Assembly: GCA_014730255.1 (NCBI GenBank) | Contig: WJIQ01000016.1 | Coordinates: forward strand, 1 to 54,707 | Direction: 5' to 3' | DNA from: a bacterium | GTDB taxonomy: Bacteria > Krumholzibacteriota > Krumholzibacteriia > LZORAL124-64-63 | DNA length: 54,707 bases | In this document: piece by piece, positions 8,418 to 35,374 of the stretch | How the letters are laid out: each line of letters starts with the position of its first letter | How positions within the stretch are numbered: position 1 is the stretch's first letter | Notes under the pieces: model-generated | What the model was told of the DNA's origin: nothing | The model's input: only the letters and a program-made list of their open reading frames with translations | Database searches by the model: none | Program-made: the position numbers and the translations under genes

Positions 8418-11400
8418 ATGCGCGGCCGATCACGTCAGGGGACCGTCTTGGACCGCACTTGGTATCGCCGGGTGGAGACCTGGCTGCCCGCGCTGGTGCT
8501 GGTGACCGCTCTCGGGGTCTACACCGCCACGCTCGGGCCGACCATCGACTTCTGGGACTGCGGCGAATACGTCACCACCAGCCACATCGTCGGCGTCCCC
8601 CATCAGCCGGGCACCCCGATGTACGTGCTGGTCGGACGCGTGTTCGACGTGGTCTTCGGCAGTCCCGACCTCGACGAGCCGTCCTTCCGCACGGCCTGGG
8701 CGGTCAACTTCATGTCCGCGGTGTTCAGCGCGCTGGCGGTGATGATGGTCTACCTGATCATCGTCCGCGTCGCGCGCGCGAACGATCCGGACGCGGGCTG
8801 GCTGGCCCGCGCCGGCGGCCTGGTCGGCGCGTTCTTCCTGCTCTTCTCCGACACGTTCTGGAACAACGCCATCGAGGCCGAGGTCTACGGCCTGGCCGGG
8901 TTCATGATGACCTTGCTCACCTGGGTGAGCCTGGTCTGGTACGAACACCGCACCGAGCGCCGGAGCGACTGGCTGCTGCTGCTCCTGATCTACCTCTGCG
9001 GCCTGGGGGTGGGCTTCCATCTGGGGTCGCTCCTGGTCTATCCGGCGTTCTTCGTCATGGTCTGGCTGGCGACCGACCGGCAGCTGCCGGTGCTCGACCT
9101 GACCCTGGTGAGCATCGGCCTGGCCCTGTTCCTGGCCTCGACCACCTTCGTGACCGACGGCCAGGTGCTGCAGGCGATGGTGATCCTGTTCACCATCGGA
9201 TGCGTGGTGCGCGCGGCCTGGCCGCAGCTGCGCCGGCTGGCCGGGGCGAGCGACCCGGACGAGCCGGCCTGGCGGCCGTTCGCGCTCTTCGGCCTCTTGC
9301 TGTTCATGGTCGGCCTGTCGGTGCACGCCGTCCTGATGATCCGCGCCGGGGCGACGCCCGAGCCGGCGATCAACCAGACCGTGCCCGACGACTTCGCGAC
9401 CCTGCTCTCGGTGCTGCGCCGCGAGCAGTATCCCCCGCTGAATCCCCTCGAGCGCCAGGCCCCGCTGGCCTTCCAGTTCGGCTACTACTACGACTTCCTG
9501 CTGCGCCAGTGGTCCTTCCTGCCGCACCCGGGCGAGTGGCTCGATCGCGCCTCGGTGCTCGTCGGGCCGATCCTGCTGGCGCTGCTCGGCGTCGTGCACA
9601 CCGTGCGCCGGGCGCGGCCGCTCGTGTGGCTGCTGGTGCTGGGATACCTGATCAACGCCGACGGCCTGACCCTGTACCTGAACTTCACCGACGAAGAGGT
9701 GCGCGAGCGCGACTACTTCTACTTCGCGGCCTTCCTCTTCGGCAGCGTGTTCATCGGCCTGGGCACCGCGGCGCTCCTGCGCTGGACCAGCGGGCCCCTG
9801 GGTCGGACGCTCGACCAGTTGCAGCGGGACGTGATGCCGCCGCCGCCCGCGCGGCCGTTCGTGCTCAACGGCTTCGTCTTCCGGGTCCTGGTGGCGTTCG
9901 TGGTCGCCCTGGTGCTCATGGCCGTGATCGGCGCCGAGACCAAGGCGGGCTGGCTGGGGCTGTTCCTGTTCGGCGCCGTGTTCGTCGGCCTCGGCTGCGC
10001 GCGATGGCTGGACAGCCTGGGCGTCGGCGGGTCCGGCGGCGTGATCTGGAACGAGAAGCCCTGGGCCTGGCAGTTCGGGATGCTCGCCGGGCTCGTGGGC
10101 ATGGTGCTCGCCGCCGCGTGGGTCCTGTGGCTGTTCGCCACGCCGAGCGACCGCGTGTTCGTGCTGGGCATCTACGTCGCGCTGATGGGGGGCGCCGTGC
10201 TCCCGTACGGCGAGCGCCGGGCCACGGCCCGGCCGGCCGCCGAGATCGAGTGGCCGCGCGCCGTGCGGGTCGATCCGCTGAGCGGGATCGCCGCCGGCGC
10301 ACTCGTCTTGCTCGCGGCGCTGCCGCTGGTCTGGTCGCTGGGCCCGGACACGCACCGCAAGTGGTTCACGCACGACCGCAGCGAGAACCGCATCGCGTAC
10401 GAGTACGCCTACAACATCCTCGCCGGCCTCGATGAGAATGCGATCGTCTTCACCAACGGCGACAACGACACGTTCCCGATCTGGTACCTGCAGGAGGTCG
10501 AGCACTTCCGCCGCGACGTGACCGTGGTCAACCTCTCGCTGGTGAACCTGCCCTGGTACGTCAAGCAGCTCAAGCGTCTGCCCGTGCCGGTGGCCCTGAG
10601 CTACACGAACCAGGAGATCGACGCGCTGCGGCCGCGCCTCTACCGGGACCAGGACAGCGGCCAGGTGATGGTCTACCCCGTGCGCGAGTACGTGGTGCAG
10701 GACATCGTCGAGACCAACCGGCGTCAGCGCGACCCGCGGCCGGTGTTCTTCGCCGTCACGATCCCGCGCGGGAACATGGCGCGGTACTACCCGTTCCTGC
10801 AGATGGAGGGCCTGGCCTACCGCCTGACCGAGACGCGCAGCGACGACGGCATGCCGTCGACCGATCCGGATCGCCTGCTGGTCAACGTCCTGGGCGCCTA
10901 CGAGCTCGGCGCCGTCACCACCGGCGACAACGAGGCGCGCCTGGACCGGTTCGCCGCCGAGGCGGGCTGGTCGACCGAACAGCCGCGCGGCCACTACCTC
11001 ACGGACGATCCGATGCCCGAGGGGCTCGATCTCGCGGCGCTGCTGGACATGGTGGGCGAGAATCGCACCGACGTGTACCGGAACCCGTCCACCGAGAACC
11101 TGCTGGGCAACTACCCGGCGAGCATCGCCCGCGCCGGGTTCACCTACCTGTCGATGGCCGAGGAGCTGCGCCAGCCTGACGGCACGCTCGCCGACACCGA
11201 CACGCTGGTCTACGACCGGCTCACCGACCGGGCGATGATCGCCTACGAGCTCTCGCTCCGGTTCGACCCGGACAACAGCCTGGTCGCGGCCGGCTACTAT
11301 CCCGCGCTCCTGATCGAGCGAGGCCGGCTCGACAGCTCGCTGTCGTACCTCTCGCGCGTGCGAGGCCGGTTCCCGCCGGAGGTCGAGGAGGCGGCGGTCC

Positions 11401-11708
11401 TCTCGGGCATGCGCAGCCTGGTCGCCCTGGAACAGTACGACCTCGCCCTGGCCTGGATCGAGACCGAGCTGGCCGAGGATCCGACCTGGCGCCTGGGCTA
11501 CGAGCTGCAGTTCCGCATCCACGAGTCGGCCGGCAACGTGGGCGCGGCGGCCGCGGTGGTCGACCGCTGGCGCGAGGTCACCGGCGAAGACGATCCGGTG
11601 ATGCGCCGCCAGCTCGAGAGGATGCGTGAGCGGGCGGGCCAGCAGGAGCGCGACAACGTGGAGCAGCGCCTGCGCGACAGCGGCGCCCTGCCGGAGGATC
11701 GCAAGTGA
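8418..11708 (+). CDS. DUF2723-family GT-C-like membrane protein with C-terminal soluble/TPR-like region
   Basis: YTATLGPTIDFWDCGEYVTTSHIVGVPHQPGTPMYVLVGRVF (DUF2723 N-terminus, D-x-GE GT-C-type motif), many TM segments, long soluble C-terminus. TTG at 8448 (AGGGG upstream) is an alternative start. Confidence 0.8.
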   Translation: MRGRSRQGTVLDRTWYRRVETWLPALVLVTALGVYTATLGPTIDFWDCGEYVTTSHIVGVPHQPGTPMYVLVGRVFDVVFGSPDLDEPSFRTAWAVNFMSAVFSALAVMMVYLIIVRVARANDPDAGWLARAGGLVGAFFLLFSDTFWNNAIEAEVYGLAGFMMTLLTWVSLVWYEHRTERRSDWLLLLLIYLCGLGVGFHLGSLLVYPAFFVMVWLATDRQLPVLDLTLVSIGLALFLASTTFVTDGQVLQAMVILFTIGCVVRAAWPQLRRLAGASDPDEPAWRPFALFGLLLFMVGLSVHAVLMIRAGATPEPAINQTVPDDFATLLSVLRREQYPPLNPLERQAPLAFQFGYYYDFLLRQWSFLPHPGEWLDRASVLVGPILLALLGVVHTVRRARPLVWLLVLGYLINADGLTLYLNFTDEEVRERDYFYFAAFLFGSVFIGLGTAALLRWTSGPLGRTLDQLQRDVMPPPPARPFVLNGFVFRVLVAFVVALVLMAVIGAETKAGWLGLFLFGAVFVGLGCARWLDSLGVGGSGGVIWNEKPWAWQFGMLAGLVGMVLAAAWVLWLFATPSDRVFVLGIYVALMGGAVLPYGERRATARPAAEIEWPRAVRVDPLSGIAAGALVLLAALPLVWSLGPDTHRKWFTHDRSENRIAYEYAYNILAGLDENAIVFTNGDNDTFPIWYLQEVEHFRRDVTVVNLSLVNLPWYVKQLKRLPVPVALSYTNQEIDALRPRLYRDQDSGQVMVYPVREYVVQDIVETNRRQRDPRPVFFAVTIPRGNMARYYPFLQMEGLAYRLTETRSDDGMPSTDPDRLLVNVLGAYELGAVTTGDNEARLDRFAAEAGWSTEQPRGHYLTDDPMPEGLDLAALLDMVGENRTDVYRNPSTENLLGNYPASIARAGFTYLSMAEELRQPDGTLADTDTLVYDRLTDRAMIAYELSLRFDPDNSLVAAGYYPALLIERGRLDSSLSYLSRVRGRFPPEVEEAAVLSGMRSLVALEQYDLALAWIETELAEDPTWRLGYELQFRIHESAGNVGAAAAVVDRWREVTGEDDPVMRRQLERMRERAGQQERDNVEQRLRDSGALPEDRK

Positions 11709-12760
11709 GCGGCCTGGACTGGGACGGCCTGCGCCAGGAGCTGCCCGCGCCGGTGTCCGAGCTGCTCGCCGAGGGCACGCCGGTCGTGGTGACCGGCTGC
11801 GCCGGATTCATCGGCAGCCACCTGACCGGGGCATTGCTGGCGCTGGGGTGCGAGGTCACGGGCGTCGACTCGCTCACCGACTACTACGACGTGGCGCAGA
11901 AGCGGGCGAATCTCGCCGGGCCGCTGGCCTCGCCGGACTTCTGTTTCCGCGAGAGGGATCTCAACGACCTCGACCTGAGGATGCTGCTGACGGGCAAGCG
12001 TGTCTGCTTCCACCTCGCCGCCCAGGCGGGCGTGCGGGCGAGCTGGGGGGCGGAGTTCACGCGCTACCTCGACTGGAACGTGCTCGCCACGCAGCGGCTG
12101 CTGGAGGCCTGCCGGCACGAGGACGTCCGCGACGATCTCGTCCGCGTCGTCTACTCGAGCAGCAGCTCGGTCTACGGCGATCAGCCGCGCTATCCGGTGA
12201 CCGAGGACGACCTGCCCATGCCGCGCTCGCCTTACGGGGTGAGCAAGCTCGCCGCCGAGCATCTGTGCGTGCTGTACGGCGAGAACTACGGCGTGCCCAC
12301 CACCAGCCTGCGCTACTTCACGGTCTACGGACCGCGCCAGCGCCCGGACATGGCCTTCCGGAAGTTCCTGGAGGCGGCCCTCGACGGCCGGCCGTTCAGC
12401 ATCTACGGCGACGGCGCGCAGACGCGCGACTTCACCTTCGTCCGTGACGCGGTGCGGGCCAACCTGCTGGCCACCGTGGCGCCCGACGTGACCGAGGTGG
12501 TCAACATCGGTGGCGGCTCGCGGGTCTCCCTGCGCGAGGCGCTCGATGTCCTCGCCACCGAGCTCGCCGCCCGCGTGCCGGGCGCCGGGCCGGAGATCCT
12601 CCGTGAGGAGACCGCGCGCGGCGACGTGCGGCACACCGCGGCGGACGTCTCGCGGGCGGCCGAGCGGATCGGCTGGCGGCCGGCCGTCGCGCTCGGCGAC
12701 GGCCTCGCGGCCGAGGCCGCCTGGACGGTGGCACGAAGGAGCGGGCATGACGCCGGATGA
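11705..12760 (+). CDS. NAD-dependent epimerase/dehydratase (extended SDR, UDP-sugar epimerase type)
   Basis: VVTGCAGFIGSHLTGALLALG...YSSSSSVYGD...SPYGVSKLAAEHL; GxxGxxG and YxxxK motifs. Confidence 0.9.
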   Translation: MSGLDWDGLRQELPAPVSELLAEGTPVVVTGCAGFIGSHLTGALLALGCEVTGVDSLTDYYDVAQKRANLAGPLASPDFCFRERDLNDLDLRMLLTGKRVCFHLAAQAGVRASWGAEFTRYLDWNVLATQRLLEACRHEDVRDDLVRVVYSSSSSVYGDQPRYPVTEDDLPMPRSPYGVSKLAAEHLCVLYGENYGVPTTSLRYFTVYGPRQRPDMAFRKFLEAALDGRPFSIYGDGAQTRDFTFVRDAVRANLLATVAPDVTEVVNIGGGSRVSLREALDVLATELAARVPGAGPEILREETARGDVRHTAADVSRAAERIGWRPAVALGDGLAAEAAWTVARRSGHDAG

Positions 12761-13727
12761 GAGGATCCTCACGCCGGACAGCCGGGTGGTGACGCCCGGG
12801 GAACGGATCGACCTCTCGGTCGTGGTGCCGGCCTGGAACGAGGCCGACTCGTTGCCCGAACTCACCCGGAGGATCGCCCTGGCGGTCGCGCCCCTGGATC
12901 TGGACTGGGAGGTGCTGGTGGTCGACGACGGGTCGGTGGACACGACCTGGGAGACGGTCGAGCGCCTGCACGTCGATCAGCCGCGCGTCCGCGGGCTCCG
13001 CTTCGCCCGCAATTACGGCAAGGCCGCCGCGCTGGCCGCGGGCTTCGCCGCCGCGCGGGGGGAGCGGATCGTCACCATGGACGCCGACCTGCAGGACGAC
13101 CCGGACGAGATCCCCGACCTGCTCGCCCGCCTGGACGAGGGCTGGGACCTGGTCAGCGGCTGGAAGCAGGACCGCAAGGACACCTGGGTGAAGAACAACT
13201 CCAGCAAGCTCTTCAACTGGGCCACCGGTCGGATGTGTGGCCTGCGCCTGCACGATTTCAACTGCGGCCTGAAGGCCTATCGCCGGGCCGTGACCGATCG
13301 CGTGCGTCTCTACGGCGAGATGCACCGGTACGTGCCGGCGCTCGCGCACCTGGAGGGGTTCCGCGTCACCGAGATGCCGGTCCGCCATCACCGCCGCAAG
13401 TTCGGCGCGACCAAGTACGGCTGGAACCGCTTCCTGCACGGTTTCCTGGACCTCCTGACCGTCTACTTCCTGCACGCGCGCGGCACGTCGCCGCTGCACC
13501 TGTTCGGACGGTTCGGGGCCCTGTTCGGCGGGGCGGGCCTGGCCATCTCGCTCTACTTCCTGGTCTACTGGGCCACCGGTCATCCGTTGCGCGTGCGGCC
13601 GATGCTGGTCGGCGGGCTGGTGCTGATCGTCATGGCGGTGCAGTTCGTCAGCCTCGGGCTCCTGGCCGAGCTGATCGTCGCCGGACGCAAGCCGGAGGCC
13701 GCCTACCGGGTGAGCGACCGTGTCTGA
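12747..13727 (+). CDS. Glycosyltransferase family 2, polyprenyl-phosphate glycosyltransferase (GtrB/ArnC/DPM-like) with C-terminal TM helices
   Basis: LSVVVPAWNEADSLPELTRRI...DWEVLVVDDGSVDTTW...MDADLQDDPDEIPDLL...two C-terminal TM segments. Confidence 0.85.
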   Translation: MTPDERILTPDSRVVTPGERIDLSVVVPAWNEADSLPELTRRIALAVAPLDLDWEVLVVDDGSVDTTWETVERLHVDQPRVRGLRFARNYGKAAALAAGFAAARGERIVTMDADLQDDPDEIPDLLARLDEGWDLVSGWKQDRKDTWVKNNSSKLFNWATGRMCGLRLHDFNCGLKAYRRAVTDRVRLYGEMHRYVPALAHLEGFRVTEMPVRHHRRKFGATKYGWNRFLHGFLDLLTVYFLHARGTSPLHLFGRFGALFGGAGLAISLYFLVYWATGHPLRVRPMLVGGLVLIVMAVQFVSLGLLAELIVAGRKPEAAYRVSDRV

Positions 13728-14673
13728 GCCCGCACCCCGGTTGCCATCGCTGTGCGTCGTGGTCGTCAACTGGAACGGGCGCGACCTGCTGCCCGATTGC
13801 CTCGGCTCGCTCGCCGACAGCGATTACCCCGACCTGCGCGTCATCATGGTGGACAACGGATCGGCCGACCGCTCGGTCGAGTGGACCCGCAAGCACCACC
13901 CCGGGGTCGAGATCATCGAGACCGGTGCCAACCTGAGGTGGGCCGGCGGCAACAACGTGGCCCTGCGGCGGCTCGCCGACGAGGGCTGGCCCCAGGATCA
14001 CGTGCTCCTGCTGAACAACGACACGATCGTGCCCGGCGGTAGCCTGGAGCGGCTCTGCGCCGGGGTCGCGGCCGACGAGCGCGCCTGGGCGGGCACGCCA
14101 CGGATCGTCTACGCCGACGACCCGTCGCGTGCCTGGTACGACGGCGGCAGGGTCGGTGCCTGGAGCGGCTGGGTCCACCACGCGGGCATCCGTCGCCGGA
14201 CCGGGACGCTGCCGACACGGGCGCGGCCGGTGGAGTACGGCACCGGATGCGCGCTGCTGGTCACGCGCAAGGGGCTCGCGCACGGCGGTCTGCTCGACGA
14301 CGGTTTCCACTTCTACGGCGAGGACGTCGATTACAGCCTGCGCTTGCGCCGGCTCGGAGCGGTGATCCGGCACGTTCCCCGGGCCGTGATCCTGCACAAG
14401 GTGAGCGTCAGCCTCGGTGCGGTCAGTCCCCGCAAGGCCTACCTGCGCAGCCGCAGCCACGTCCGTCTGCTCGCGCGGCACTGGCCGGCGCGCCGGTGGC
14501 CCGTGCTGGGGCCGGCCCAGCTGGTGTACCACGCGGCCCACGTGCTGTGGCACTGCTGGCACGGACGGCCGGCCACCGCGCTGGCGATGATCGACGGGGT
14601 GCTGGACGAGATCCGCCACCGGCCGGTGCCGGGGGCGGAAGTGGACAGGTCCGCGGACCCGATGGTAACCTGA
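13720..14673 (+). CDS. Glycosyltransferase family 2 (rhamnosyltransferase-like)
   Basis: LCVVVVNWNGRDLLPDCLGSLADSDYPDLRVIMVDNGSADRSVEW...LLLNNDTIVPGG...FHFYGEDVDYSLRLRRLG. Confidence 0.88.
   Translation: MSEPAPRLPSLCVVVVNWNGRDLLPDCLGSLADSDYPDLRVIMVDNGSADRSVEWTRKHHPGVEIIETGANLRWAGGNNVALRRLADEGWPQDHVLLLNNDTIVPGGSLERLCAGVAADERAWAGTPRIVYADDPSRAWYDGGRVGAWSGWVHHAGIRRRTGTLPTRARPVEYGTGCALLVTRKGLAHGGLLDDGFHFYGEDVDYSLRLRRLGAVIRHVPRAVILHKVSVSLGAVSPRKAYLRSRSHVRLLARHWPARRWPVLGPAQLVYHAAHVLWHCWHGRPATALAMIDGVLDEIRHRPVPGAEVDRSADPMVT
14642..14671 (+). promoter_or_regulatory. Possible promoter inside the 3' end of the GT2 gene, upstream of the YfhO-like gene
   Basis: TGGACA - 18 nt - TAACCT. Confidence 0.3.
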
Positions 14674-14716
14674 GCGACGATTCCGCCCCGGAGGGGGTCC
14701 CCGCGAGGAGTTCGAC

Positions 14717-17302
14717 GTGTCCAGGCGCAAACGCAGTTCCCAGTCCGCGGACGCCTCGCGGCCGGCGGCGACGAACCGGTCGGCGTCGGCCGACCCCTCG
14801 CCGCCGATCTGGCGACGGCTCGCTCCGCTGGTGCCCTGGCTGGTCGCCTTCGTCCTGGTGGCGGTGCTCTACCCCGGGGCCACCTTCCAGGACCGGGTCT
14901 TCGGCAGTGCCGACGCCCTCGCCTCCGACGCGTTCCGGCAGGTCGCCGATCAGGCCCGCGCCGCGGGCGACTACCCGTTCTGGAACCCGTACCTGTTCAT
15001 CGGCATGCCGACCTTCGGCTCGCTCGCCTACACCCTGGGCGTCTATCCGCCGACCCTGCTCCTCGAGAACCTCCTGCAGAACCAGCTGGGCTTTCCACCG
15101 CTGACCTGGATGCTCGCCCACCTGATCCTCGGCGGGGTGGGCGTCTGGTGGCTGCTCGGCCGCTGGCAGGTGCCGTGGGGTGGCCGCCTGCTCGCGTGCG
15201 TCGTGTTCCTCTGGTTCGCGCGGGTGGTGGCCTGGGGGGTGCACGGCCACGGGTCCAAGCTCGGCGCGGCGATGGCCATGCCCTGGCTGCTCGGGCTGGC
15301 GTGGGAGGTGCTGGCGCGCGGCCGGCTGCGCGCCGTCGGCCTGGCGGCCATCGTGCTCGGCCTGCAGTTCCTGCGCGGACACGTGCAGATCAGCTATTAC
15401 ACGCTGCTCGTCCTGGGCTTCCTGACGGTGTGGAATCTCGTGCGTCCGCTGGCCACGGACGAGGCGCCGCCGCTGCGCGAGCGAGGCCGGCGGTCGGGCC
15501 TGATGGCGGTCGCCCTGGCGCTGGGGTTCGCCATGGGCTCGGTGCTGCTGCTACCGGTGCACGACTACGCCGAGATCTCGACGCGTGGCCAGGAGGGCGC
15601 CAGCGGCGGCGGACGGACGCCCTACGAGTACGCCACCGACTGGAGCCTGGCCCCCGAGGACCTCGCGGCCACGGTCGTGCCCGGTGCGGCCGGCTTCGGC
15701 AAGGCGACGTACGCCGGCCGGATGCCCTTCACCGACTATCCGAACTACCTCGGACTGGTGGTGCTCGGACTGGCGGTCGCGGCGTGGTGGTCGCCGCGGC
15801 GTCGCCTCGTGCTGGCGTTCACGGTCACCGCGGCGCTCGGCCTCCTGCTGGCGATGGGGCGGTTCAGCCCGGGGATCTACCAGCTGGCCTACGAGGTGCT
15901 GCCCTATTTCACGAAGTTCCGCGTTCCGTCCATGGCGATGGTGGTGCCGGCGCTGCTGCTGGCCGTGCTCGCCGCCCTGGGTGCGACGACCCTCGCCCGC
16001 GGCGAGCGGATCGGGATGACCTGGCTCGGGCGCGTTGCCATCGGCGTGATGGTCGTCGGGGCGATCCTGCTGGTTGGCGGTGGCGGCGGCCTGTTCGAGG
16101 ACGCGTACCGCGACCACCTCTCCGGCCTCGCCGAGCGTTCGGGCAAGCCCACCGCCCCGGCGCTCCTGGCGGCGGCCTGGGACGTGCACTCGGGGCTGCT
16201 GGTCCGTCAGGGCCTGGTGGTGATGGTGGCCGGCGCGGCGCTCCTGCTGGCCGCGCGTCGCGACGCGTTCCGGCGCCTGGGCCTCGTGCCGGCGCTGGCG
16301 CTGCTCGTGGCGGTGGATCTGGGCTCGGTGGCCCAGCTGGTCACCCATCCCGAGCGGGGGCTGGTCGACGTCGTGCGCACGGCCGACGGTGGCGCCCGTC
16401 TGGCCCGGACCCAGCCGCTGGAGCGGCCCTGGCGCCCATCGGACCGGGTGCAGCTGCCACTGGGCCAGGCGCAGGTCCTGCAGCGCGTGGTCGGCCACGA
16501 TCGCCTGCTTCCTCTCGGACAGGACGCCGGCAGCAACGCCTTCATGACCGCCGGGGTGCGATCGCTCGGCGGTTACCATCCGGCCAAGCCGGCCGCCGCC
16601 GAGATCATCCGTCAGCGGCTGTTCGCCGGCATGCCCAGCGGTCCGGTGGCGCGCTGGCTCGCCGCGGCGGCCATCCTGACGCCCGGACCGCTGCCCGCCG
16701 AGTCGCTCGAACGCCTGGCGGCCGCCGGCCTGGCGGTCGATCCCGAGGCCATCGACGCCGGCGACCGGACGGTGTACGAGGTGCGCGAGGCGTTGCCGCG
16801 GGCGCGCCTGATCGACCGCTGGGAGCCAGTGCCCGCCAGAGGAGACGATCTGGACGGTTTCCTGGACGATCTCGAGGCCGGTCGGCACGACCCCGCGGCC
16901 GTGGTGCGGCTGGACCGCGCGCCCGATCCGCCCCCCGAGACCGGCCCGGAACTCCTGCCAGCGCCCGAATTCGTGCGCGACGGCCTCGACGAGGTGGTCC
17001 TGGCGGTCGAGACCCCGCGGCCGGCCCTGCTCTTGCTTGCCGATCTTGCCACGGACGGCTGGCGGGTCGAGATCGATGGCGAGGAGGCGCCGCTCCTCGT
17101 CGCCGACCACGTCCTGCGCGCCGTCGCCGTGCCCGGGGGTCGACACGAGGTGCGCTTCGAGTACCATGATCCGGCGTTCACGCGCGGATTGATACTGGCC
17201 ATCTGCGGGCTCGCGATGGCCCTCGTGCTGGTGGTCTGGCCCTGGCTCCGCTCCCTGCGGCAGCCGGTCGCCGCTCCCGTGGGAGATCGCACCGAGCCAT
17301 GA
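14717..17302 (+). CDS. YfhO-family-like GT-C membrane protein
   Basis: YPGATFQDRVFGSADAL...YPFWNPYLFIGMPTFGSLAYTLGVYPPTLLLENL, multiple TM segments, C-terminal extracytoplasmic domain and final TM. Confidence 0.7.
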   Translation: MSRRKRSSQSADASRPAATNRSASADPSPPIWRRLAPLVPWLVAFVLVAVLYPGATFQDRVFGSADALASDAFRQVADQARAAGDYPFWNPYLFIGMPTFGSLAYTLGVYPPTLLLENLLQNQLGFPPLTWMLAHLILGGVGVWWLLGRWQVPWGGRLLACVVFLWFARVVAWGVHGHGSKLGAAMAMPWLLGLAWEVLARGRLRAVGLAAIVLGLQFLRGHVQISYYTLLVLGFLTVWNLVRPLATDEAPPLRERGRRSGLMAVALALGFAMGSVLLLPVHDYAEISTRGQEGASGGGRTPYEYATDWSLAPEDLAATVVPGAAGFGKATYAGRMPFTDYPNYLGLVVLGLAVAAWWSPRRRLVLAFTVTAALGLLLAMGRFSPGIYQLAYEVLPYFTKFRVPSMAMVVPALLLAVLAALGATTLARGERIGMTWLGRVAIGVMVVGAILLVGGGGGLFEDAYRDHLSGLAERSGKPTAPALLAAAWDVHSGLLVRQGLVVMVAGAALLLAARRDAFRRLGLVPALALLVAVDLGSVAQLVTHPERGLVDVVRTADGGARLARTQPLERPWRPSDRVQLPLGQAQVLQRVVGHDRLLPLGQDAGSNAFMTAGVRSLGGYHPAKPAAAEIIRQRLFAGMPSGPVARWLAAAAILTPGPLPAESLERLAAAGLAVDPEAIDAGDRTVYEVREALPRARLIDRWEPVPARGDDLDGFLDDLEAGRHDPAAVVRLDRAPDPPPETGPELLPAPEFVRDGLDEVVLAVETPRPALLLLADLATDGWRVEIDGEEAPLLVADHVLRAVAVPGGRHEVRFEYHDPAFTRGLILAICGLAMALVLVVWPWLRSLRQPVAAPVGDRTEP

Positions 17303-18045
17303 CGACACGATCGAGCTCGACCGAACGCACACGCATCGAACGGCCCATCGTGGTGGTGCCGACGTACAACGAGGCCGAGAACATCGGGCGGCTGGTGCCG
17401 CAGATCCTCGCGCAGGACAGCCGGCTGTCCGTCCTCGTGGTCGACGACAACTCGCCCGACGGCACGGCGGACGTGGTGCGACGGCTCCCGGACTACGGCG
17501 GCCGGGTCAAGCTCCTCCTGCGCGAGAAGAAGGAGGGGCTCGGCCAGGCGTACATCGCCGGCTTCCAGTGGATCCTGGCCAACACCGACCACGACGCCGT
17601 CTTCGAGATGGACGCCGACTTCAGCCACGATCCGGCCGCGCTGCCGCAGTTCCTGCGCGAGATCGCCGTCCACGACCTCGTGCTCGGGTCGCGCTACCTC
17701 AATGGCATCACCGTGGTCAACTGGCCGCTCAGCCGGCTCATCCTGTCGGTCGGGGCCAACATGTACGCCAGCATGATCACGGGCCTGCCGCTGAAGGACT
17801 GCACCGGTGGCTTCAAGTGCTTCCGCCGCGAGCTGCTCGAGGTCCTGCCCCTGGACCGGATCAAGAGCGACGGCTACAGCTTCCAGATCGAGGTGAACTT
17901 CCACGTCTGGAAGCGCGGCTACCGCATCAAGGAGATCCCGATCATGTTCGTCGATCGGCAGGTCGGGACCAGCAAGATGTCCCGCAGGATCATCTTCGAG
18001 GCGGCCTGGATGGTCTGGGCCCTGCGCTTCAAGCGCATATCGTAG
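17299..18045 (+). CDS. Polyprenol-monophosphomannose synthase-like GT2 (DPM1-like)
   Basis: IVVVPTYNEAENIGRLVPQIL...LVVDDNSPDGTADVVRRL...EMDADFSHDPAALPQFL...SRYLNGITVVNWPLSRLILS...CTGGFKCFRRE; no TM tail. Confidence 0.88.
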   Translation: MTTRSSSTERTRIERPIVVVPTYNEAENIGRLVPQILAQDSRLSVLVVDDNSPDGTADVVRRLPDYGGRVKLLLREKKEGLGQAYIAGFQWILANTDHDAVFEMDADFSHDPAALPQFLREIAVHDLVLGSRYLNGITVVNWPLSRLILSVGANMYASMITGLPLKDCTGGFKCFRRELLEVLPLDRIKSDGYSFQIEVNFHVWKRGYRIKEIPIMFVDRQVGTSKMSRRIIFEAAWMVWALRFKRIS

Positions 18046-18054
18046 CGAGGTCTC

Positions 18055-20154
18055 GTGACCCGGCGTCTGAGCATCGTCATCGTCCACTACAACACGCCCG
18101 GCGACCTCGGCCGCTGCCTCGAGTCGCTCGCGGCCCACGCCCCGTCATGCGACCACGAGATCGTCGTCATCGACAACGCCAGCACCGCGTCGGGGCTCGA
18201 CGAGCTGCAGGCCCGCTTCGCCGAGGTGCGCTGGGTGCGCAACACCGAGAACGTCGGATACGGCAAGGCCTGCAACCAGGGCATGGCGCTCGTGCCGGCC
18301 GACTTCCACCTGATCCTCAATCCGGACATCGTCGTCCTCGAGGGGGCCATCGATCGCCTCGTGGCGTTCGCCGCGGACACGCCGCGCGCCGGGATCATCG
18401 GCCCGCAGCTGTTGAACGAGGACGGCACGATCCAGGAGTCGTGCCGACGCTTCTACACCTTCTGGACGCTGCTGCTGAGGCGCACGATCCTCGGCAAGCT
18501 CCTGCCGAACAGCCGGACGATCCACCGCCACCTCATGCGCGACTTCGACCACCAGACCACCCGTACGGTGGACTGGGTCCTCGGCGGCTGCCTGCTCGTC
18601 CGCCGCGAGGCGCTCGCCCGCTGCGGGCCCATGGACGATCGCTTCTTCCTCTACTTCGAGGACGTCGACTGGTGCTACCGGATGTGGCAGTGCGGCTACG
18701 AGGTGGTCTACCTGCCCGACGCGCGTTTCGTGCACCGGCACCGGCGCGCGAGCGCCAAGGGTGCGTTCAGCCGCAGCTTCTGGCTGCACCTGACCAGCCT
18801 GATCTCGTTCTACGAGAAATGGAGCCTGGTGGTGTACGTGGCCAAGAAGTGGCGCCGACCGGTGGAGGTGGTGCTGCACTGGGCGCTGGACATGGCCCTG
18901 CTGGCGGTCGCCCTGCTCGGCGCGTACGGCGTGCGCTGGCTCGCCGGGCCGCTGTTCGACGACCAGCTGCTGCGCCTGTCCTGGTACGCGGGCTGGGCGG
19001 GATGGTCGGCCCTCATGGTCACCGTCGCCTTCACGCTCATGGGGCGCTATGGCCGCGCCTCGTTGCAGAGGGGGCTGATCTGGACCGCGCATCTGCGCCA
19101 GATGGGCATGGTCGCCCTGCTGCTGCTCGCCGGCTCGTACCTCGGGCGGGACGAGGTCGTCAGCCGGGCCGTACTGGTCGTGTTCCTGGGCCTGTACACC
19201 CTGCTCGCGGCCTGGGCGCTGCACTGGGCGCACGGCCTGCATCGACGCCTGACGCAGGGTTACTTCACGCTCGAGCGGACCCTGCTGGTGGGCGCCGAGT
19301 CGCAGCTCGCGCCGTGGCTCGCGTCCGGGCAGGACCTGCGCGAGGCCGGCGTCGACGTGGTCGGCTACCTCACCGACGATCCCCCCGATCCGGACCGGCC
19401 TGCGCTCGGCAGCGGGGAGGTGCCGTGGCTGGGCACGACCGATCGGCTGGCCGATCTCGTCGAGCGCCATCGCGTCTCGCAGATCGCGTTCTGGCAGCGG
19501 CCGGGGCCGGATGCGGACCTCTGGACCACCCTGGCCGCGCTGCGCGGTCAGAGGATCCGGCTACGCTGGATCCTGGACGAGGCCTGGCTGCTGTCGGTGG
19601 GCGCGCGGGCCGACCGCTTCGGCACCAGCCCCAGTGGCGTGCTGGACCCCGACGACGGCCTCGCCGTCCGGCATGGACTGCTGCGACCGGTGGAGATCCT
19701 GTTCGGCACGTTGCTGGTCGTGGCCTCGCTGATCGGATGGCCGTCCCGCCGCCGGCGCCGCCGGCGGGGGGAGCTACGCGCCGTCGAGGTCGACAGATCG
19801 GCGGGACGGCCGCATCATGAGACCCTGACGATCGAGACCGACCCGGATGGCTGGCCGCTGCCGATCTGGTCGCAGACCGACCTCGCGCGGTCCCTGGTCA
19901 CCGGGCGCGTCGGCCTGGTCGGCGCGCCGCTCCGGCCGGACGCGGCGCTCGCCGACCCGGCCAGGCTCCTGACCGAACTCGATACCCTGCGCCCCGGGCT
20001 GACCGGCGCGTGGGCGCGATCGGACGACGCGCCGGCCACCGGTGGCTCGGCATGGCGGACGTTCTTCCTGAACCCCGGAGGATGGGGGCGACGCCCGTCG
20101 TCCTCGGGAACCACGGCTCCTCGCGCGAGCGGGGAGGAGGTGCAACGATCATGA
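18055..20154 (+). CDS. GT2 domain fused to TM / Rossmann / degenerate polyprenyl-phosphate phosphoglycosyltransferase-like C-terminus
   Basis: N-term LSIVIVHYNTPGDLGRCLESL...IVVIDNASTAS...LILNPDIVVLEG...FFLYFEDVDWCYRM; C-term TMs, LLVGAESQLAPWLASGQDL..DVVGYL (CoA-binding-like), then GLVGAPLRPDAA...LRPGLTGAWAR resembling SLVGPRP...PGITGLWQ. Confidence 0.75.
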   Translation: MTRRLSIVIVHYNTPGDLGRCLESLAAHAPSCDHEIVVIDNASTASGLDELQARFAEVRWVRNTENVGYGKACNQGMALVPADFHLILNPDIVVLEGAIDRLVAFAADTPRAGIIGPQLLNEDGTIQESCRRFYTFWTLLLRRTILGKLLPNSRTIHRHLMRDFDHQTTRTVDWVLGGCLLVRREALARCGPMDDRFFLYFEDVDWCYRMWQCGYEVVYLPDARFVHRHRRASAKGAFSRSFWLHLTSLISFYEKWSLVVYVAKKWRRPVEVVLHWALDMALLAVALLGAYGVRWLAGPLFDDQLLRLSWYAGWAGWSALMVTVAFTLMGRYGRASLQRGLIWTAHLRQMGMVALLLLAGSYLGRDEVVSRAVLVVFLGLYTLLAAWALHWAHGLHRRLTQGYFTLERTLLVGAESQLAPWLASGQDLREAGVDVVGYLTDDPPDPDRPALGSGEVPWLGTTDRLADLVERHRVSQIAFWQRPGPDADLWTTLAALRGQRIRLRWILDEAWLLSVGARADRFGTSPSGVLDPDDGLAVRHGLLRPVEILFGTLLVVASLIGWPSRRRRRRRGELRAVEVDRSAGRPHHETLTIETDPDGWPLPIWSQTDLARSLVTGRVGLVGAPLRPDAALADPARLLTELDTLRPGLTGAWARSDDAPATGGSAWRTFFLNPGGWGRRPSSSGTTAPRASGEEVQRS

Positions 20155-22586
20155 AGACCTCGATCAACCTACCGCGCCTGATCATGATCTGGTGCCTGCT
20201 CTGGACCGCCGGTGCGATGGCGCAGGAGCCGGTCTTCCGTCCGATCCTCACCGGTCACCGGATCGTGTCCGCCATCGAGGTGGATGGGCTGGTCTACGCC
20301 GGGATGGCCAAGGGCGGCGTGCTGGAGTGGGATCCGGACGCGCGCGAGCTGCGCCGGCACCTGGACCGCGCCGACGGTCTGAGCGGTCACTTCGTCAACG
20401 ACATGACCTGGTCGGGCAGCCGCCTGCTCGTCGCCTATGACGACGGGGGCATCACCGCGATCAGCAACCCGGGCAGCGGGCAGGAGTTCTTCCAGCTCTA
20501 TCGCGACGGCCTCGCCTCGCTCACGGTCACCTGCGTGACGGGCCAGCAGATCGGCGGCTCCGAGCGCATCTACTACGGGACCGACGGCAACGGCATCGGT
20601 GTGATCGACGGCGGTCGCGAGGGGGCCTACTTTTCGACGCTCGAGGGCCTGATCGACGACACGGTCGACGCGATCGCCCTCTCGGGCGACCTGTTGCTGG
20701 TGGCCACGCCCACCGGCGTGTCCCGGTTCGTGGACAACGCCTTCACCAACTACGAGTACGCCGACACGGGTTGGCCGGTGATCAACCGACTGGTCACCGC
20801 CGGCGACGGGGCGATCTGGGCGGCGACCCAGGGCGGCATCAAGCGCTGGGACGACGAAGGCCGCACATGGGTCGACGTCTTCGGCACCGTGCCGTTCGTG
20901 GACCTCGCCGCCGACGGCGACGCGATGATCGCCCTGACGCGGTTCGGCGACGTCGTGAGGCTGATCGGCGGGTCCGCTCCTGCGATCACGGTGCCGGCCG
21001 ATCCCGACGGCGAGGATCTCGAGATCACCTCGGTGTTCCCGGTCGATGGCGAGATCTGGGTCGCGGGCGAGATCACGAGCCTGGCCCTGGGCCCCGGCTC
21101 GCGCGCGTCGCGCTCGTGGCTCGCGCCCACGGGCGATGCCGCGCAGGCGCCGTACGAGGTCGCCACGTGCCACCTCGGCGTCGGCGGTGGCTTCGACGGG
21201 GTGGCCATCGACGATCGCGGTCGCGCGTGGGTCGGTGACCGTGAGGGCGACGGCGTGACCGGCTACGATGGGACCACCTGGTACAACGTCGATCGCGAGG
21301 GAAGCGAGGAGAACGGTTTCAACGGCCTCTACAACTTCTCGGGCAGCATCCTCACCATGACCTCGAGCGGGGACGACCTCTGGATCTATCAGTACACCGT
21401 CGGGGCGCTGCGCTTCCGGCCCGCGGCCGCGCCCGGGGGCGAGGAGAGCTGGGAGCGGATCAACCGCGGCACGACCGCCATGCGGACCGACGGGGCGATC
21501 ACCATGGCGACGCACCCGGACGGCGCGATCCTCTTCGGCTCGGATGCGGCCCAGTGGTGGGACGGTGCGGCCGAGAACTCCCAGTTCGGTGTCGACATCC
21601 TCTTCGACCCGGAGGCGCCGTTCGACGATGCGTCGTGGCATCACGTCTCGATCGACGATCTCGATGGCAACCTGGTCCGCGCGATGGCCTTCGAGCGCCG
21701 GGACGTCGTCTGGTTCGCGGTGCAGAACACCGGGCTGAAGCGCTGGGACATCAACGGCCTGGGCTCCGGCCCGGACGACCCGCTGACCTGGGACGATCCG
21801 AGCGACGACCACTGGTCGCCCGCCCTGATGTCGGTCTCGCCGAGCACGGTCACCTTCGAGACGGTCAACACGCTGGCCGCCGATGCGGCCGGCACCATCT
21901 GGGTCGGAGGCTCCGGACTCGTGCGCTTCGAGTACGCGCCCGAGTTCGGCCTGGCCACCCTGCGCGGCGAGTGGTCGCAGAAGGACCAGACCCTCGAGCC
22001 CGGTCTGCTGGGGCAGCTGGTGCGCGGCCTGGAGTTCGATCGCAACGGCGATCTCTGGATCCTGACCGATGGCGGCCTGGACCGCTTCCGCATCACGGAC
22101 GACGCGGTGACCGTCGACTCGTACACCGACCTGGTGACCTTCGGCGGCCTGGACCAGCGCTTCTACTCCGCGAGCGCCATCGCCCCCCTTCCGGGCGGCT
22201 CTTACCGCGATCTGACCATCTCGGCCGACGGTGCGCGCCTGGCCTTGACCAGCGATCTCGGCGCTGTCATGGTGGACGTGCCCGCGCGCGCGACGACGGG
22301 CGCCGAGGCCCTCGCGTCGCTGTACCTCTATCCCAACCCCTTCCCGGGTGACGGGGCGGCGCGGGTGGGCATCGGTGGCCTGGAGGTCGACGAGGCGAAT
22401 CCGGCGCGGGTCGAGGTCCTCAACCTCGTCGGGCAGATCGTCTACCGCGACGACCGCGTCACCGACCCCTCGGGTTTCTGGGACGGACGCAACCGGCTGG
22501 GCGAGCGCGTGGCGTCGGGGATGTACGTGGTGAAGATCTCCCAGGACGACGCCGTGCGGGTGGTGCCGCTGGCCGTGGCGTTCTAG
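20151..22586 (+). CDS. Secreted beta-propeller protein (two-component-regulator-propeller-like) with C-terminal FlgD-Ig / T9SS-type sorting-like domain
   Basis: Signal peptide MKTSINLPRLIMIWCLLWTAGAMAQ; repeated W-containing propeller blades; C-term LYLYPNPFPGDGAARVGI...VEVLNLVGQIVYRD...GFWDGRNRLGERVASGMYVVKI. Confidence 0.75.
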   Translation: MKTSINLPRLIMIWCLLWTAGAMAQEPVFRPILTGHRIVSAIEVDGLVYAGMAKGGVLEWDPDARELRRHLDRADGLSGHFVNDMTWSGSRLLVAYDDGGITAISNPGSGQEFFQLYRDGLASLTVTCVTGQQIGGSERIYYGTDGNGIGVIDGGREGAYFSTLEGLIDDTVDAIALSGDLLLVATPTGVSRFVDNAFTNYEYADTGWPVINRLVTAGDGAIWAATQGGIKRWDDEGRTWVDVFGTVPFVDLAADGDAMIALTRFGDVVRLIGGSAPAITVPADPDGEDLEITSVFPVDGEIWVAGEITSLALGPGSRASRSWLAPTGDAAQAPYEVATCHLGVGGGFDGVAIDDRGRAWVGDREGDGVTGYDGTTWYNVDREGSEENGFNGLYNFSGSILTMTSSGDDLWIYQYTVGALRFRPAAAPGGEESWERINRGTTAMRTDGAITMATHPDGAILFGSDAAQWWDGAAENSQFGVDILFDPEAPFDDASWHHVSIDDLDGNLVRAMAFERRDVVWFAVQNTGLKRWDINGLGSGPDDPLTWDDPSDDHWSPALMSVSPSTVTFETVNTLAADAAGTIWVGGSGLVRFEYAPEFGLATLRGEWSQKDQTLEPGLLGQLVRGLEFDRNGDLWILTDGGLDRFRITDDAVTVDSYTDLVTFGGLDQRFYSASAIAPLPGGSYRDLTISADGARLALTSDLGAVMVDVPARATTGAEALASLYLYPNPFPGDGAARVGIGGLEVDEANPARVEVLNLVGQIVYRDDRVTDPSGFWDGRNRLGERVASGMYVVKISQDDAVRVVPLAVAF

Positions 22587-22617
22587 GGCGACGAGTTTCT
22601 CGAGGGAGGACGAGGCC

Positions 22618-24081
22618 GTGGCCGGATCGGCGGAGGAACCCAGGACCCGGATGCTCATCGTCGGTGCCGGCGAGGCGGGTCAGATGCTGGCGCGCCAGAT
22701 GCGCGGTGATCCGGGGCTCGGACTCGAGCCCGTCGGCTTCGTCGACGATGATCCGTCGCTGATCGGCACCGACGTGCTCGGACTGCCGGTGGCCGGCAAG
22801 ATCCAGGAACTGGTCGAGGCCGCCGATCGGCTGGCGGCGCAGGAGATCCTGATCGCGATCCCGTCGGCGCGCGGTTCGCTGATCCGCCGGCTGGTCCTGC
22901 TCTGCAAGCGGGCGGGCCTGCCGTTCCGCATCGCCCCGGGCCTGCGGGCGATCATCGACGGCGACGTGAGCTTCAAGCAGGTCCGGCCCGTCGCCCCGGA
23001 GGATCTGCTGGGGCGCGAATCGGTGCGGTTCCGGGCAGAGTCGGCCCGCTCGGTTGTGGCCGGCCGATCGGTGCTCGTCACCGGCGCGGGCGGTTCGATC
23101 GGCGGCGAGCTCTGCCGGCAGCTCGCCGCGCTCGGTGCGGCGGAGATGCTGCTGCTGGGCCGCGGCGAGAACAGCCTGTTCCAGATCATGGGCGAGCTGG
23201 ATGCCCTGAACACCGGCACACGTCTGGTGCCGATCGTAGCCGACATCCGGGACGTCGACCGTCTGGCCGTGCTCGCGAGTCGTCACCGGCCGGGGTTGAT
23301 CCTGCATGCCGCGGCGCACAAGCACGTCCCGCTCATGGAGGACAACCCCGAGGAGGCGATCGTCGTCAACGCGGGCGGGACCGCCAACCTCATCGAGTTC
23401 GCCCGGAGGGTCGAGGCCGAGCGCTTCGTCCTGATCAGCACGGACAAGGCGGCCGAACCGAGCAGCGTGATGGGTGCGAGCAAGAAGCTCGCCGAGCTGC
23501 TCGTCCGCCACGCGCAGGACGGGGCGGAGACCCGCTTCATGACCGTGCGCTTCGGCAACGTCCTCGGCAGCCGGGGTTCGGTCGTGCCGTTCTTCCTCGA
23601 CCGCATCGCCGCGGGCAAACCGCTGCCGGTGACCCACCCGGAGATGACCCGGTACTTCATGACCATCCGCGAGGCGGCCATGCTCGTGATCGAGGCGATG
23701 GTCCTCGGCGAGGCGGGCACGACGTACATCCTCGAGATGGGCGAGCCCGTGCCGATCCTCGAGCTCGCCCGCAACCTGCTCGTGCTCTGCGGATTCGATC
23801 CGGACGAGGGCGGCCCGGGCATCGAGATCGTCGGCATGCGGCCGGGCGAGAAGCTGCACGAGTCGTTGCTCGATCCGGGCGAGAAGCTCGAAGCGAGCGG
23901 TGCCGAGCTGATCCATCGCGCGCGATGCCGCGTCGGCGATCCGGCCGCGGCGGTGGCGGCCCTGCCGCGCCTGCTGGACCACGCCCGACGCGGTGATCGC
24001 CAGTCGCTGCGGCGCGACCTGGCCGACGTGCTCGACCGCCCCGGGCTGGCCGAGCCGTTGACGGCCCGGAGCCGGACGTGA
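22618..24081 (+). CDS. CapD/FlaA1-like polysaccharide biosynthesis nucleoside-diphosphate-sugar epimerase/dehydratase, lacking N-terminal TM helices
   Basis: RMLIVGAGEAGQMLARQM...VGFVDDDPSLIG...VLVTGAGGSIGGELCRQL...AAAHKHVPLMEDNPEEAIVVNAGGTANL...STDKAAEPSSVMGASKKLAE. Confidence 0.9.
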   Translation: MAGSAEEPRTRMLIVGAGEAGQMLARQMRGDPGLGLEPVGFVDDDPSLIGTDVLGLPVAGKIQELVEAADRLAAQEILIAIPSARGSLIRRLVLLCKRAGLPFRIAPGLRAIIDGDVSFKQVRPVAPEDLLGRESVRFRAESARSVVAGRSVLVTGAGGSIGGELCRQLAALGAAEMLLLGRGENSLFQIMGELDALNTGTRLVPIVADIRDVDRLAVLASRHRPGLILHAAAHKHVPLMEDNPEEAIVVNAGGTANLIEFARRVEAERFVLISTDKAAEPSSVMGASKKLAELLVRHAQDGAETRFMTVRFGNVLGSRGSVVPFFLDRIAAGKPLPVTHPEMTRYFMTIREAAMLVIEAMVLGEAGTTYILEMGEPVPILELARNLLVLCGFDPDEGGPGIEIVGMRPGEKLHESLLDPGEKLEASGAELIHRARCRVGDPAAAVAALPRLLDHARRGDRQSLRRDLADVLDRPGLAEPLTARSRT

Positions 24082-25118
24082 CCGGTGGCGACGCCGCCCA
24101 TGATCTGACCACCGCGATCGCCGACGCCCCGCCGCCCGGCTGGGACGACCTCTGGTCGCGCACGCCGGACGCCGAGTTCACGCAGACGTCCCTGTGGTCC
24201 GAGCTGGCCGCCCGCCACTTCCCGGCGGCCTTCGCCCGCTGGCACACCGTGCGCGCCGGCGACGACCTGCTGGGCGGCGCCGTGCTCCTGGGCCGGGCGC
24301 GACGGGGGCTCGTGCGGCTCGAGGGGCAGGTCGAGGGCACGGTCGGCGGTCCGCTGGTGCGGGGCGACCTCGGCCCGGCGCGGCGGGATGCAGTGGTCGG
24401 CCGGCTGCTGCGCTCGATCGCCGATGCGCTGGGCGGGCGGACGGGCCTGGTGGCGCTGACCGCGTCCGGCCACGACCGCGATCGCGTGGCCGCCCTCGCG
24501 CCGCCGCGCACCTGGCGTCGCGACGACTACGACTCGGCCATCGTCGATTGCCGCGGCGGGCTCGATCAGGTCGGGCGCGAGCTGTGGACCAACAACCGCC
24601 GCAACGAGCGCAACCGCGGGCTCAAGCGCGGCGCCACCCTGCACTCCGGCGCCGACGTCCAGGCGCTGACCGAGTGGTACCCGCTGTACGAGGCCAAGGC
24701 GGCGCAGTGGTCCCAGGCTCCAGTACCCCTCGCCTTCCTCGCGTCCCTGCTCGAAGCGGCGCCGGGGGCGACCTCGTTCGATCACGTCCGGCTCGACGGC
24801 GCCGTGGTCGCCGGGCACGTCGGCTTCGTCTCCCGTGGGCGCCTGGTGGCGTGGCAGGGGGCGGTCCGTCCCGACCTGGTCCGCACGCATTTCCCGACCA
24901 CCCTGCTCTACTGGCGCAACGTCATGACCGCCTGCGAGCGCGGCCTCGAGGCCGTCGACTTCGGCGGGTGCGTGGGGCGCGACACGCTCTGGGACTTCAA
25001 GCGCCGCTGCGGCGCCGTCGCCGAACCCCGCACGCAGTTGCTGGCCCGTTCGTGGTATGGCCGCGCGCACCGGCGGTTCGCCGGGTTGGTCCGCGGGTCG
25101 GCGGGGGTGGGCCCATGA
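24078..25118 (+). CDS. FemAB/GNAT-like acyltransferase family protein
   Basis: TPDAEFTQTSLWSELAARHFP...WTNNRRNERNRGLKRGATLHSGADVQALTEWYPLYEAKAAQW...FGGCVGRDTLWDFKRRCG. Confidence 0.65.
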   Translation: MTGGDAAHDLTTAIADAPPPGWDDLWSRTPDAEFTQTSLWSELAARHFPAAFARWHTVRAGDDLLGGAVLLGRARRGLVRLEGQVEGTVGGPLVRGDLGPARRDAVVGRLLRSIADALGGRTGLVALTASGHDRDRVAALAPPRTWRRDDYDSAIVDCRGGLDQVGRELWTNNRRNERNRGLKRGATLHSGADVQALTEWYPLYEAKAAQWSQAPVPLAFLASLLEAAPGATSFDHVRLDGAVVAGHVGFVSRGRLVAWQGAVRPDLVRTHFPTTLLYWRNVMTACERGLEAVDFGGCVGRDTLWDFKRRCGAVAEPRTQLLARSWYGRAHRRFAGLVRGSAGVGP

Positions 25119-26410
25119 AGCTCGCGCTGACCGGATCGCAGGTGCTGCTGTGGCGCGCGGCGCAGAAGGCGGCGGGGGTGGCCACGGCGATCGTGGTCAT
25201 GCAGGGGCTCGGTCCCGAGGGCAACGGACGCTACAGCCTGACCGTGACGATCATCACCGTGCTGGGCGCCGTGCTCAGCGCGGGGGTGGGGCTGGCCTCG
25301 GTGCCGCGATTGCGCGACGGCGAGGAGTCGCCGCGGCGCATCCTGCGCGCGCAGGGGGCCTGGCTGCTCGTGGTCGCCGGCGTCCTCGTGATCCTCGCGC
25401 TGCTCACGCGCGACTCCGCCCCCTGGGGCTGGCTCGAGGGGAGCCTGGGCTGGCACCCCGGATTGCTGGCGGCCGTGCCGCTGGCGGTGCTCGGGCTGGT
25501 CGCCTACGAGACGGCGAACTACGACCTGCTGGCGGCCGGTCGCGTGGTGGTCGGGACCGTGACGGCGTCGGGCCGCGCGCTGCTGCTGCTCGCGGCGATG
25601 GTGCTGCTGCTGCTCGTGTGGTCGCACGGGATCGTGGCCGCGGTGCTCGCGCTGGTGGGCGCGCATGCGCTGGCGGGGCTGGTCCTGGGGCGTCGCGCCT
25701 GGGTGACGGTCACGACGCGCCTGCCCGCCGACGGACGTGCGCGCACCCCGCTGCCGCGGCTCGCGGGGCGGCTCGTGCGTCACGGCTGGCTGGGGCAGCT
25801 GTCGGCCCTGATCTACCTGCTCCTGTTGCGGCTCGACCAGTTCCTGCTCGAGTCCTCGCTCGACGTGCGGGCGGTCGGCCTCTATGCGGCGGCGGCCTGG
25901 GCGGCCGAGCTCCTCTGGCTGGTCCCGGAGGCGCTCAATCCGCTGCTCGTGCACTCGTCGTCGAACCAGGCCGACCGGCACCGCGATCGGACCGCGGCGC
26001 GCGCGGTCCGCCTGGGTCTCGGGCTGACGGCGCTGGCGGCAATCCCCCTGGCGGTGGTCTGCGAGCCGCTGCTGGCGCTGGTCCGCGACGGCGAGTTCCA
26101 GGCGGCAGCGGCGCCGTTGCGCGTGCTGCTGCCGGGCATCGTCGCGTTCGCGCCGGGGGTGATCCTCGCCGGCGATTTCATCGGGCGGGGCAGGCCGGCG
26201 TGGAACACCCACGCCAGCGCGGTCACCGTCGTGGTGAACGTCGCGCTCTGCCTGCTCTGGATCCCCCGCTTCGGGATCATGGGGGCGGCCTGGGCCTCGA
26301 CGGTGGCCTACACGCTCGGCGCGGCGATCATGATGGTCCGGTTCCAGCGCCTGACCGGCACCCGCTGGGCCGACCTGCTGGTCCCGCGACCCTCGGACCT
26401 GCGCCGCTGA
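25115..26410 (+). CDS. Wzx-like polysaccharide flippase (MOP/MVF superfamily membrane protein)
   Basis: Polytopic; N-term QVLLWRAAQKAAGVATAIVVMQGLGPEGNGRYSLTVTIITVLGAVLSAGVGLA; C-term LLPGIVAFAPGVILAGDFIGRGRPAWNTHASAVTVVVNVALCLLWIPRFGIMGAAWASTVAY. Confidence 0.8.
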   Translation: MKLALTGSQVLLWRAAQKAAGVATAIVVMQGLGPEGNGRYSLTVTIITVLGAVLSAGVGLASVPRLRDGEESPRRILRAQGAWLLVVAGVLVILALLTRDSAPWGWLEGSLGWHPGLLAAVPLAVLGLVAYETANYDLLAAGRVVVGTVTASGRALLLLAAMVLLLLVWSHGIVAAVLALVGAHALAGLVLGRRAWVTVTTRLPADGRARTPLPRLAGRLVRHGWLGQLSALIYLLLLRLDQFLLESSLDVRAVGLYAAAAWAAELLWLVPEALNPLLVHSSSNQADRHRDRTAARAVRLGLGLTALAAIPLAVVCEPLLALVRDGEFQAAAAPLRVLLPGIVAFAPGVILAGDFIGRGRPAWNTHASAVTVVVNVALCLLWIPRFGIMGAAWASTVAYTLGAAIMMVRFQRLTGTRWADLLVPRPSDLRR

Positions 26411-26543
26411 GGCCGGCCGTCCTTCTTTTTTCTTCCCACCTTTCCCCACCAGCCGCCTCTTCTCGCCAGATCGGCCGTTAAAGCCCATTCAATGGGATTC
26501 AGGGGCGATTCTCGAAAATTCTCGTTTCCCTCGATAAACCCGC

Positions 26544-27175: not shown

Positions 27176-27589
27176 ATGCCGACCGAGGGGATCCGCAGTT
27201 CGACGACCAGTCGCACACCGAGACCGAACTGCCAGCATCGCATCAAGGTCCAGGGACGGACCGTGCGGATCCACCTCGGAGGCGTTCTCGATCGCCCGGG
27301 CGCGACACGCCTGATCCGGTCGGTCAATCATCTGCTGATCGGCGGACGCTGCCTCGTGGTGCTCGACGCGACGGAGCTCGTGCACCTCGACTATCGCTGC
27401 GTGGGGATGCTCGTCCGCTGGCAGCGCGGGCTACGGTCGTTCGGCCACCGGCTGATCCTCGAGAACTGGAACGATTACCTGCGCACCATCCTGGCCATGG
27501 AGGACTGGGATGGTGAGCTCGAGAGGAGGACGCTCGGCCCCGAGCCCGCGGGGGCTCGTGTCCGGGCCATGCAAGTCCAGGCGCCATGA
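27176..27589 (+). CDS. STAS-domain-like protein (anti-sigma antagonist fold)
   Basis: VQGRTVRIHLGGVLDRPGATRLIRSVNHLLIGGRCLVVLDATELVHLDYRCVGMLVRWQRGLRSFGHRLILENWNDYLRTIL; ATG 27176 preceded by GGAG. Confidence 0.65.
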   Translation: MPTEGIRSSTTSRTPRPNCQHRIKVQGRTVRIHLGGVLDRPGATRLIRSVNHLLIGGRCLVVLDATELVHLDYRCVGMLVRWQRGLRSFGHRLILENWNDYLRTILAMEDWDGELERRTLGPEPAGARVRAMQVQAP

Positions 27590-35373: not shown

Positions 35374-35374
35374 G

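Follow-up and report, generated by a model that had tools for sequence, protein, structure and literature searches.

Large monotopic phosphoglycosyltransferases (PGTs) such as WbaP, WcaJ and EpsZ (TIGR03025; PF13727 + PF02397) combine a TM bundle, a Rossmann DUF and a C-terminal PGT domain, and it is through this DUF, which also binds uridine nucleotides, that WbaP forms its dimer (PMC10942596). In PglC, the active site requires the D93-E94 dyad together with K59, R88 and R111, while its re-entrant helix carries a DX12P motif and is associated with a stabilizing D168 (PMC12802240); R88 and R145 of the same enzyme have been implicated in UndP binding (PMC10519829). Further functional domains can be fused to an active PGT core, giving the Bi-PGTs (PMC10942596). 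Here we evaluate a gene in which a glycosyltransferase is joined to a protein half of the large-PGT kind, found in a stretch of 54,707 nucleotides from a Krumholzibacteriota genome (contig WJIQ01000016.1) that we call the window.

Domain architecture of the fusion protein

The gene occupies 18055..20154 on the forward strand, as the first-pass annotation had it, and its reading frame opens with a GTG start codon and runs for 699 codons. Together with its orthologue matches, this frame defines a 699-aa protein with the order GT2, TM bundle, Rossmann (CoA_binding_3) and pseudo-PGT domain. Its GT2 catalytic domain (aa 1-240; 18055..18774, forward strand) matches PF00535 at residues 6-156 (E 6e-19) and has the GT-A fold, the metal motif NPD (aa 89-91) and the ED motif (aa 202-203), and these two motifs proved invariant in all 67 fusion sequences surveyed (see below).

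Behind the GT2 domain, and likewise on the forward strand, lie a transmembrane region (aa 262-399; 18838..19251) that the AlphaFold2 model resolves into four long helices as in large PGTs, a Rossmann-like DUF (CoA_binding_3, about aa 401-530; 19255..19644), and the pseudo-PGT domain (aa 531-680; 19645..20094), the last delimited by homology, modelling and residue mapping and carrying the motifs LVGAPLRP and RPGLTGAW. Among profile matches, PF13727 was found at residues 349-477 (E 7e-8), and TIGR03025, the NCBIfam model for large PGTs, covers residues 278-526 only, corresponding to the front half of that model (E 5e-15). Pfam returned no match to PF02397, the PGT catalytic domain, in the window protein. 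With four TM helices and PF13727 ahead of the PGT-like domain, the architecture is that of a WbaP-type large PGT preceded by a GT2.

Descent of the C-terminal domain

We evaluated the ancestry of the C-terminal domain by profile comparison and by structural modelling. Direct comparison of the window family with canonical PGTs reached a probability of only 63% (hhalign, E 7e-5), and on the window sequence by itself PGT ancestry would not be provable; sister families of the same phylum were therefore used as intermediates. The C-terminal halves of orthologues in these sister families match PF02397 with E values from 9e-11 to 2e-22 (5 scanned, all above the curated cut-off), the sister-family profile aligns to canonical PGTs of the same phylum at 99.7% (hhalign, E 5e-27), and the window family aligns to the sister-family profile at 98.6% (E 7e-16). 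A tree of the PGT domains, rooted at its midpoint only, splits canonical from pseudo forms with support 0.98, without pointing to any one canonical lineage as the source of the pseudo form.

Structural evidence came from two models. In searches of the PDB the full-length model resembles GT2/GT-A structures, which crowd out its C-terminal half, so a separate model was built for residues 262-699 from 41 aligned sequences (AlphaFold2; mean pLDDT 85.8, pTM 0.79). This C-terminal model places the helices of the TM region at 6-35, 49-67, 82-102 and 110-140 (construct numbering) and breaks the first PGT helix into 536-560 and 562-570, where the re-entrant helix has its Ser-Pro hinge. Searched against 350,542 PDB chains with Foldseek, its top match was WbaP 8t53 (E 4.6e-6, probability 1.00, with 430 columns aligned to a chain of 398 residues), a match that is local along the chain and not rigid (TM 0.33-0.35, rmsd 18.6), so that the domains may be differently arranged or the model may not be rigidly comparable. 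Given the homology through sister families and this structural match, descent of the C-terminal region from a monotopic PGT domain, as the first-pass annotation had proposed from motif resemblance, is supported.

Loss of the PGT active site

To summarize the fate of the catalytic residues, we surveyed 47 distinct window-family sequences and 20 PGT-like sister-family sequences alongside 32 canonical PGTs of the phylum, in which D93-E94, K59, R88, R111, DX12P and D168 are all invariant. The Asp-Glu dyad, present in 32/32 canonical PGTs, is absent in all 67 fusion sequences. In the window protein its positions are taken by S606-Q607, exactly as the earlier ungapped register had placed them; across the window family the first position is W, R, S, C or N and the second an invariant Gln (Q607), and in the sister families the pair consists of V, F, L, A, C or I followed by K, N, Q, A or S. 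The other substrate-orienting residues went the same way, with K59, R88 and R111 lost together with D93 and E94 in 20/20 sister-family sequences, and with the R111 position occupied by Pro in the window and by Arg in 31 of the 47 window-family members. A frameshift or assembly error behind the missing dyad was considered and rejected because the 67 sequences agree.

The domain is not merely point-mutated, since the stretch with KFRSM and the R88 region has been deleted: in sister-family pseudo-PGTs the deletion spans the stretch between KFRSM and SLDELPQ, and the KFRSM segment is absent from the window domain as well. Residues of the fold were treated differently, as D11 and G109 are kept in 20/20 sister-family sequences, P110 in 18/20 and D168 in 15/20, with P24 kept in only 8/20. 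This pattern, in which catalysis is lost and the fold kept, would be expected of a pseudoenzyme, and pseudo-PGT status is strongly supported. The domain has been remodelled further in the window family than in its sisters: the DX12P positions D11 and P24 are mostly lost (E547 and I560 in the window protein), and an invariant Pro674 has been gained in a DPGGF-like motif. As a separate observation, the GPRP loop in the pseudo-PGT domain of orthologue L035 (477-2642) contains a short stretch duplicated in tandem (DGPRPQTGGRRETP).

Distribution and selection

The search for the same fusion in related genomes, recommended at the first reading, revealed that the gene is widespread in its phylum and usually present once. 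In two genomes of the same genus its product is 61-63% identical along the whole protein, and when 84,980 species were scanned, about twenty full-length relatives came up (45-63%, mostly Candidatus Krumholzibacteriia or Krumholzibacteriota). Of the 80 genomes sampled from the phylum, 69 have an orthologue with an E value of 1e-95 or lower, the remaining 11 giving weaker matches only, mostly to the GT2 part (9 of these 11 genomes are less than 90% complete). The gene is single-copy in nearly every genome of the phylum, and two window-family orthologues (L059 and L075) contain one in-frame TGA each. Outside the phylum, the matches listed for 121 genomes of another phylum, which does have single-domain GT2 relatives, did not include the fusion, nor was it found at a strict threshold in 18 genomes of other lineages, and no PGT was found adjoining the unfused GT2 genes outside the phylum (L043-L046).

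Selection on the domains was summarized as omega from pairwise Nei-Gojobori estimates. For the pseudo domain, omega was 0.19-0.44 in most window-family pairs, 0.11-0.23 in two sister-family pairs, and about 0.80 when the window was paired with L008, a relative from its own genus, compared with 0.06-0.20 for the GT2 domain, making the pseudo domain the fastest-evolving part of the fusion. We interpret these values to mean that the pseudo domain is constrained but relaxed, and perhaps decaying in the genus of the window.

Genomic context

The fusion gene sits among envelope-glycosylation genes whose order has been kept across the phylum; the five neighbours described in this paragraph with their coordinates are on the forward strand. 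Immediately upstream is a DPM1-like GT2 (17299..18045; PF00535, E 6e-29), found at the same place with 60-81% identity wherever the contig reaches, preceded by a YfhO-like membrane protein (14717..17302), a putative GT-C with a weak PF09586 match below cut-off, and by GT2a (13720..14673; PF00535). Immediately downstream is a secreted propeller protein with a signal-like start (20151..22586; Reg_prop, weak FlgD_ig). Wherever contigs extend far enough, the 40 loci compared, which come from eight families, share the series YfhO-like, DPM1-like, fusion, propeller, and the distances between these genes hardly vary; most loci also have GT2a upstream, and CapD-like and FemAB-like genes usually follow. 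The CapD/FlaA1-like nucleotide-sugar dehydratase (22618..24081; PF02719, E 4e-99) is a neighbour in most loci; several relatives, L024, L038 and L039 among them, gave no match to it at the corresponding position.

Several further features of this neighbourhood can be read from the window. At 20151-20154 the ATG of the propeller gene overlaps the TGA of the fusion (ATGA), which suggests translational coupling, and the CapD/FlaA1-like protein starts right at its CoA_binding_3 domain, without N-terminal TM helices. Farther upstream lie a TMEM260-like mannosyltransferase, an epimerase and another GT2 (GT2b), which together with GT2a, the YfhO-like and DPM1-like genes, the fusion, the propeller, and the CapD-like, FemAB-like and flippase-like genes form a long envelope-glycosylation operon (8418-26481) whose middle part is syntenic through the phylum. 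Directly downstream of this operon, at 27586-36523, are cell-division and cell-wall genes (RsmH, an FtsI-like PBP with PASTA domains, two Mur ligases and FtsW), and RsmH lies downstream in several relatives too (L022, L028, L030, L035, L039).

No canonical PGT was found in the flanks of the loci or on the contig of the window. The window's genome encodes five PGTs of the active type elsewhere, including a large one, and several PF02397 matches per genome are usual in the genomes sampled from the phylum.

Proposed role of the pseudo-PGT domain

To explain these observations together, we favour as the probable reading that the fusion is a membrane-bound GT2 on a large monotopic PGT chassis that ceased to act as a PGT in the common ancestor of the phylum and now serves as a scaffold. 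The GT2 domain would carry out the reaction, most likely the transfer of a sugar to an acceptor that is polyprenyl-linked and supplied by other enzymes, and the TM helices, Rossmann domain and dead PGT domain would anchor the protein at the cytoplasmic face of the membrane, beside its lipid-borne substrate, probably as a dimer like that of WbaP. Consistent with a scaffold are the selective loss of catalytic residues with D11, G109 and D168 retained, the conservation of a single copy and of the operon across eight families, the constraint seen in most pairs (omega 0.11-0.44), and flanks that hold no active PGT. Against it stand the rapid evolution of the pseudo domain, with omega about 0.8 in the genus of the window, where the domain may be drifting toward no function, and the local, non-rigid nature of the Foldseek match; in addition, as most window-family members have no DX12P Asp, the re-entrant anchor may be altered in that family.

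The first-pass annotation had suggested instead that the domain recruits the acceptor, such that a pseudo-PGT still binding polyprenyl-(pyro)phosphate would pass a lipid-linked acceptor to the fused GT2. We consider this doubtful, since R88 and the Arg of WQVxGR (mapped to R145 of PglC and uncertain by one residue) are invariant in the 32 canonical PGTs but lost in 20/20 sister pseudo-PGTs, and the former active site has had its surrounding segment deleted. In favour of recruitment, the sister families retain the fold, a conserved turn at G109/P110 and, in the re-entrant helix, D11, and residues newly conserved near the old site, some of them basic, also speak for it: a Lys at the E94 position in 8/20 sister sequences, a nearly invariant Arg after the conserved Trp, and in the window family the invariant Gln in place of Glu. 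Because fold residues remain, membrane anchoring or dimerization explains the data at least as well as acceptor recruitment does.

A regulatory role for the large-PGT half, whose Rossmann domain would sense a nucleotide sugar and whose heterodimer with an active large PGT would couple priming to addition of the next sugar, seems to us improbable. The nucleotide-binding, dimer-forming DUF of WbaP (PMC10942596) offers a precedent, the Rossmann domain of the fusion is well conserved, and an active large PGT is among those encoded elsewhere in the genome; the fusion does not, however, co-localize with any active PGT. That the PGT domain still catalyses its reaction with a different set of residues is highly implausible. 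In 17/20 sister sequences a conserved Asp precedes the dyad position by two residues, but it was rejected as an active-site residue because one sister family and the entire window family lack it; K59, R88, E94 and R111 are also missing in the sister families.

Returning to the scaffold, we tentatively propose a broader reading, on which we would place somewhat less than even confidence: that these proteins make up a family of pseudoenzymes extending through the phylum, whose dead large-PGT domain has turned into a lipid-acceptor or membrane docking platform dedicated to the glycosyltransferase fused to it, and that they are a core component of a conserved envelope-glycosylation operon. The open-access papers that we searched, a set outside which the main superfamily survey falls (O'Toole et al. 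2021), yielded no description of a dead monotopic PGT. If the proposal is true, these would be natural proteins that keep the membrane-embedding parts of a PGT without its chemistry, so that the role of those parts alone can be asked. A practical consequence concerns annotation, since the sister-family proteins match PF02397 above cut-off and will therefore be named sugar transferases automatically, which would misplace the priming step of the pathway.

Comparison with known systems

Among the described systems closest to it, the large monotopic PGTs share with the fusion the same order of TM bundle, Rossmann DUF and PGT-like C-terminal domain, and within that group WbaP is the best structural match to its C-terminal half; the fusion differs in adding an N-terminal GT2 and in having lost the catalytic residues along with the KFRSM-to-SLDELPQ stretch. 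Bi-PGTs resemble it in pairing a PGT core with a second functional domain, but in place of an active PGT with a second activity the fusion has a PGT part whose catalytic residues are absent, and because that part is dead the protein is presumably not bifunctional in the Bi-PGT sense; it also has the membrane and DUF domains of large PGTs. Stand-alone GT2 proteins of the rhamnosyltransferase/MftF-like group, single-domain relatives of which are common in another phylum, have the same GT2 domain with NPD and ED, whereas the large-PGT chassis is what sets the fusion apart from them.
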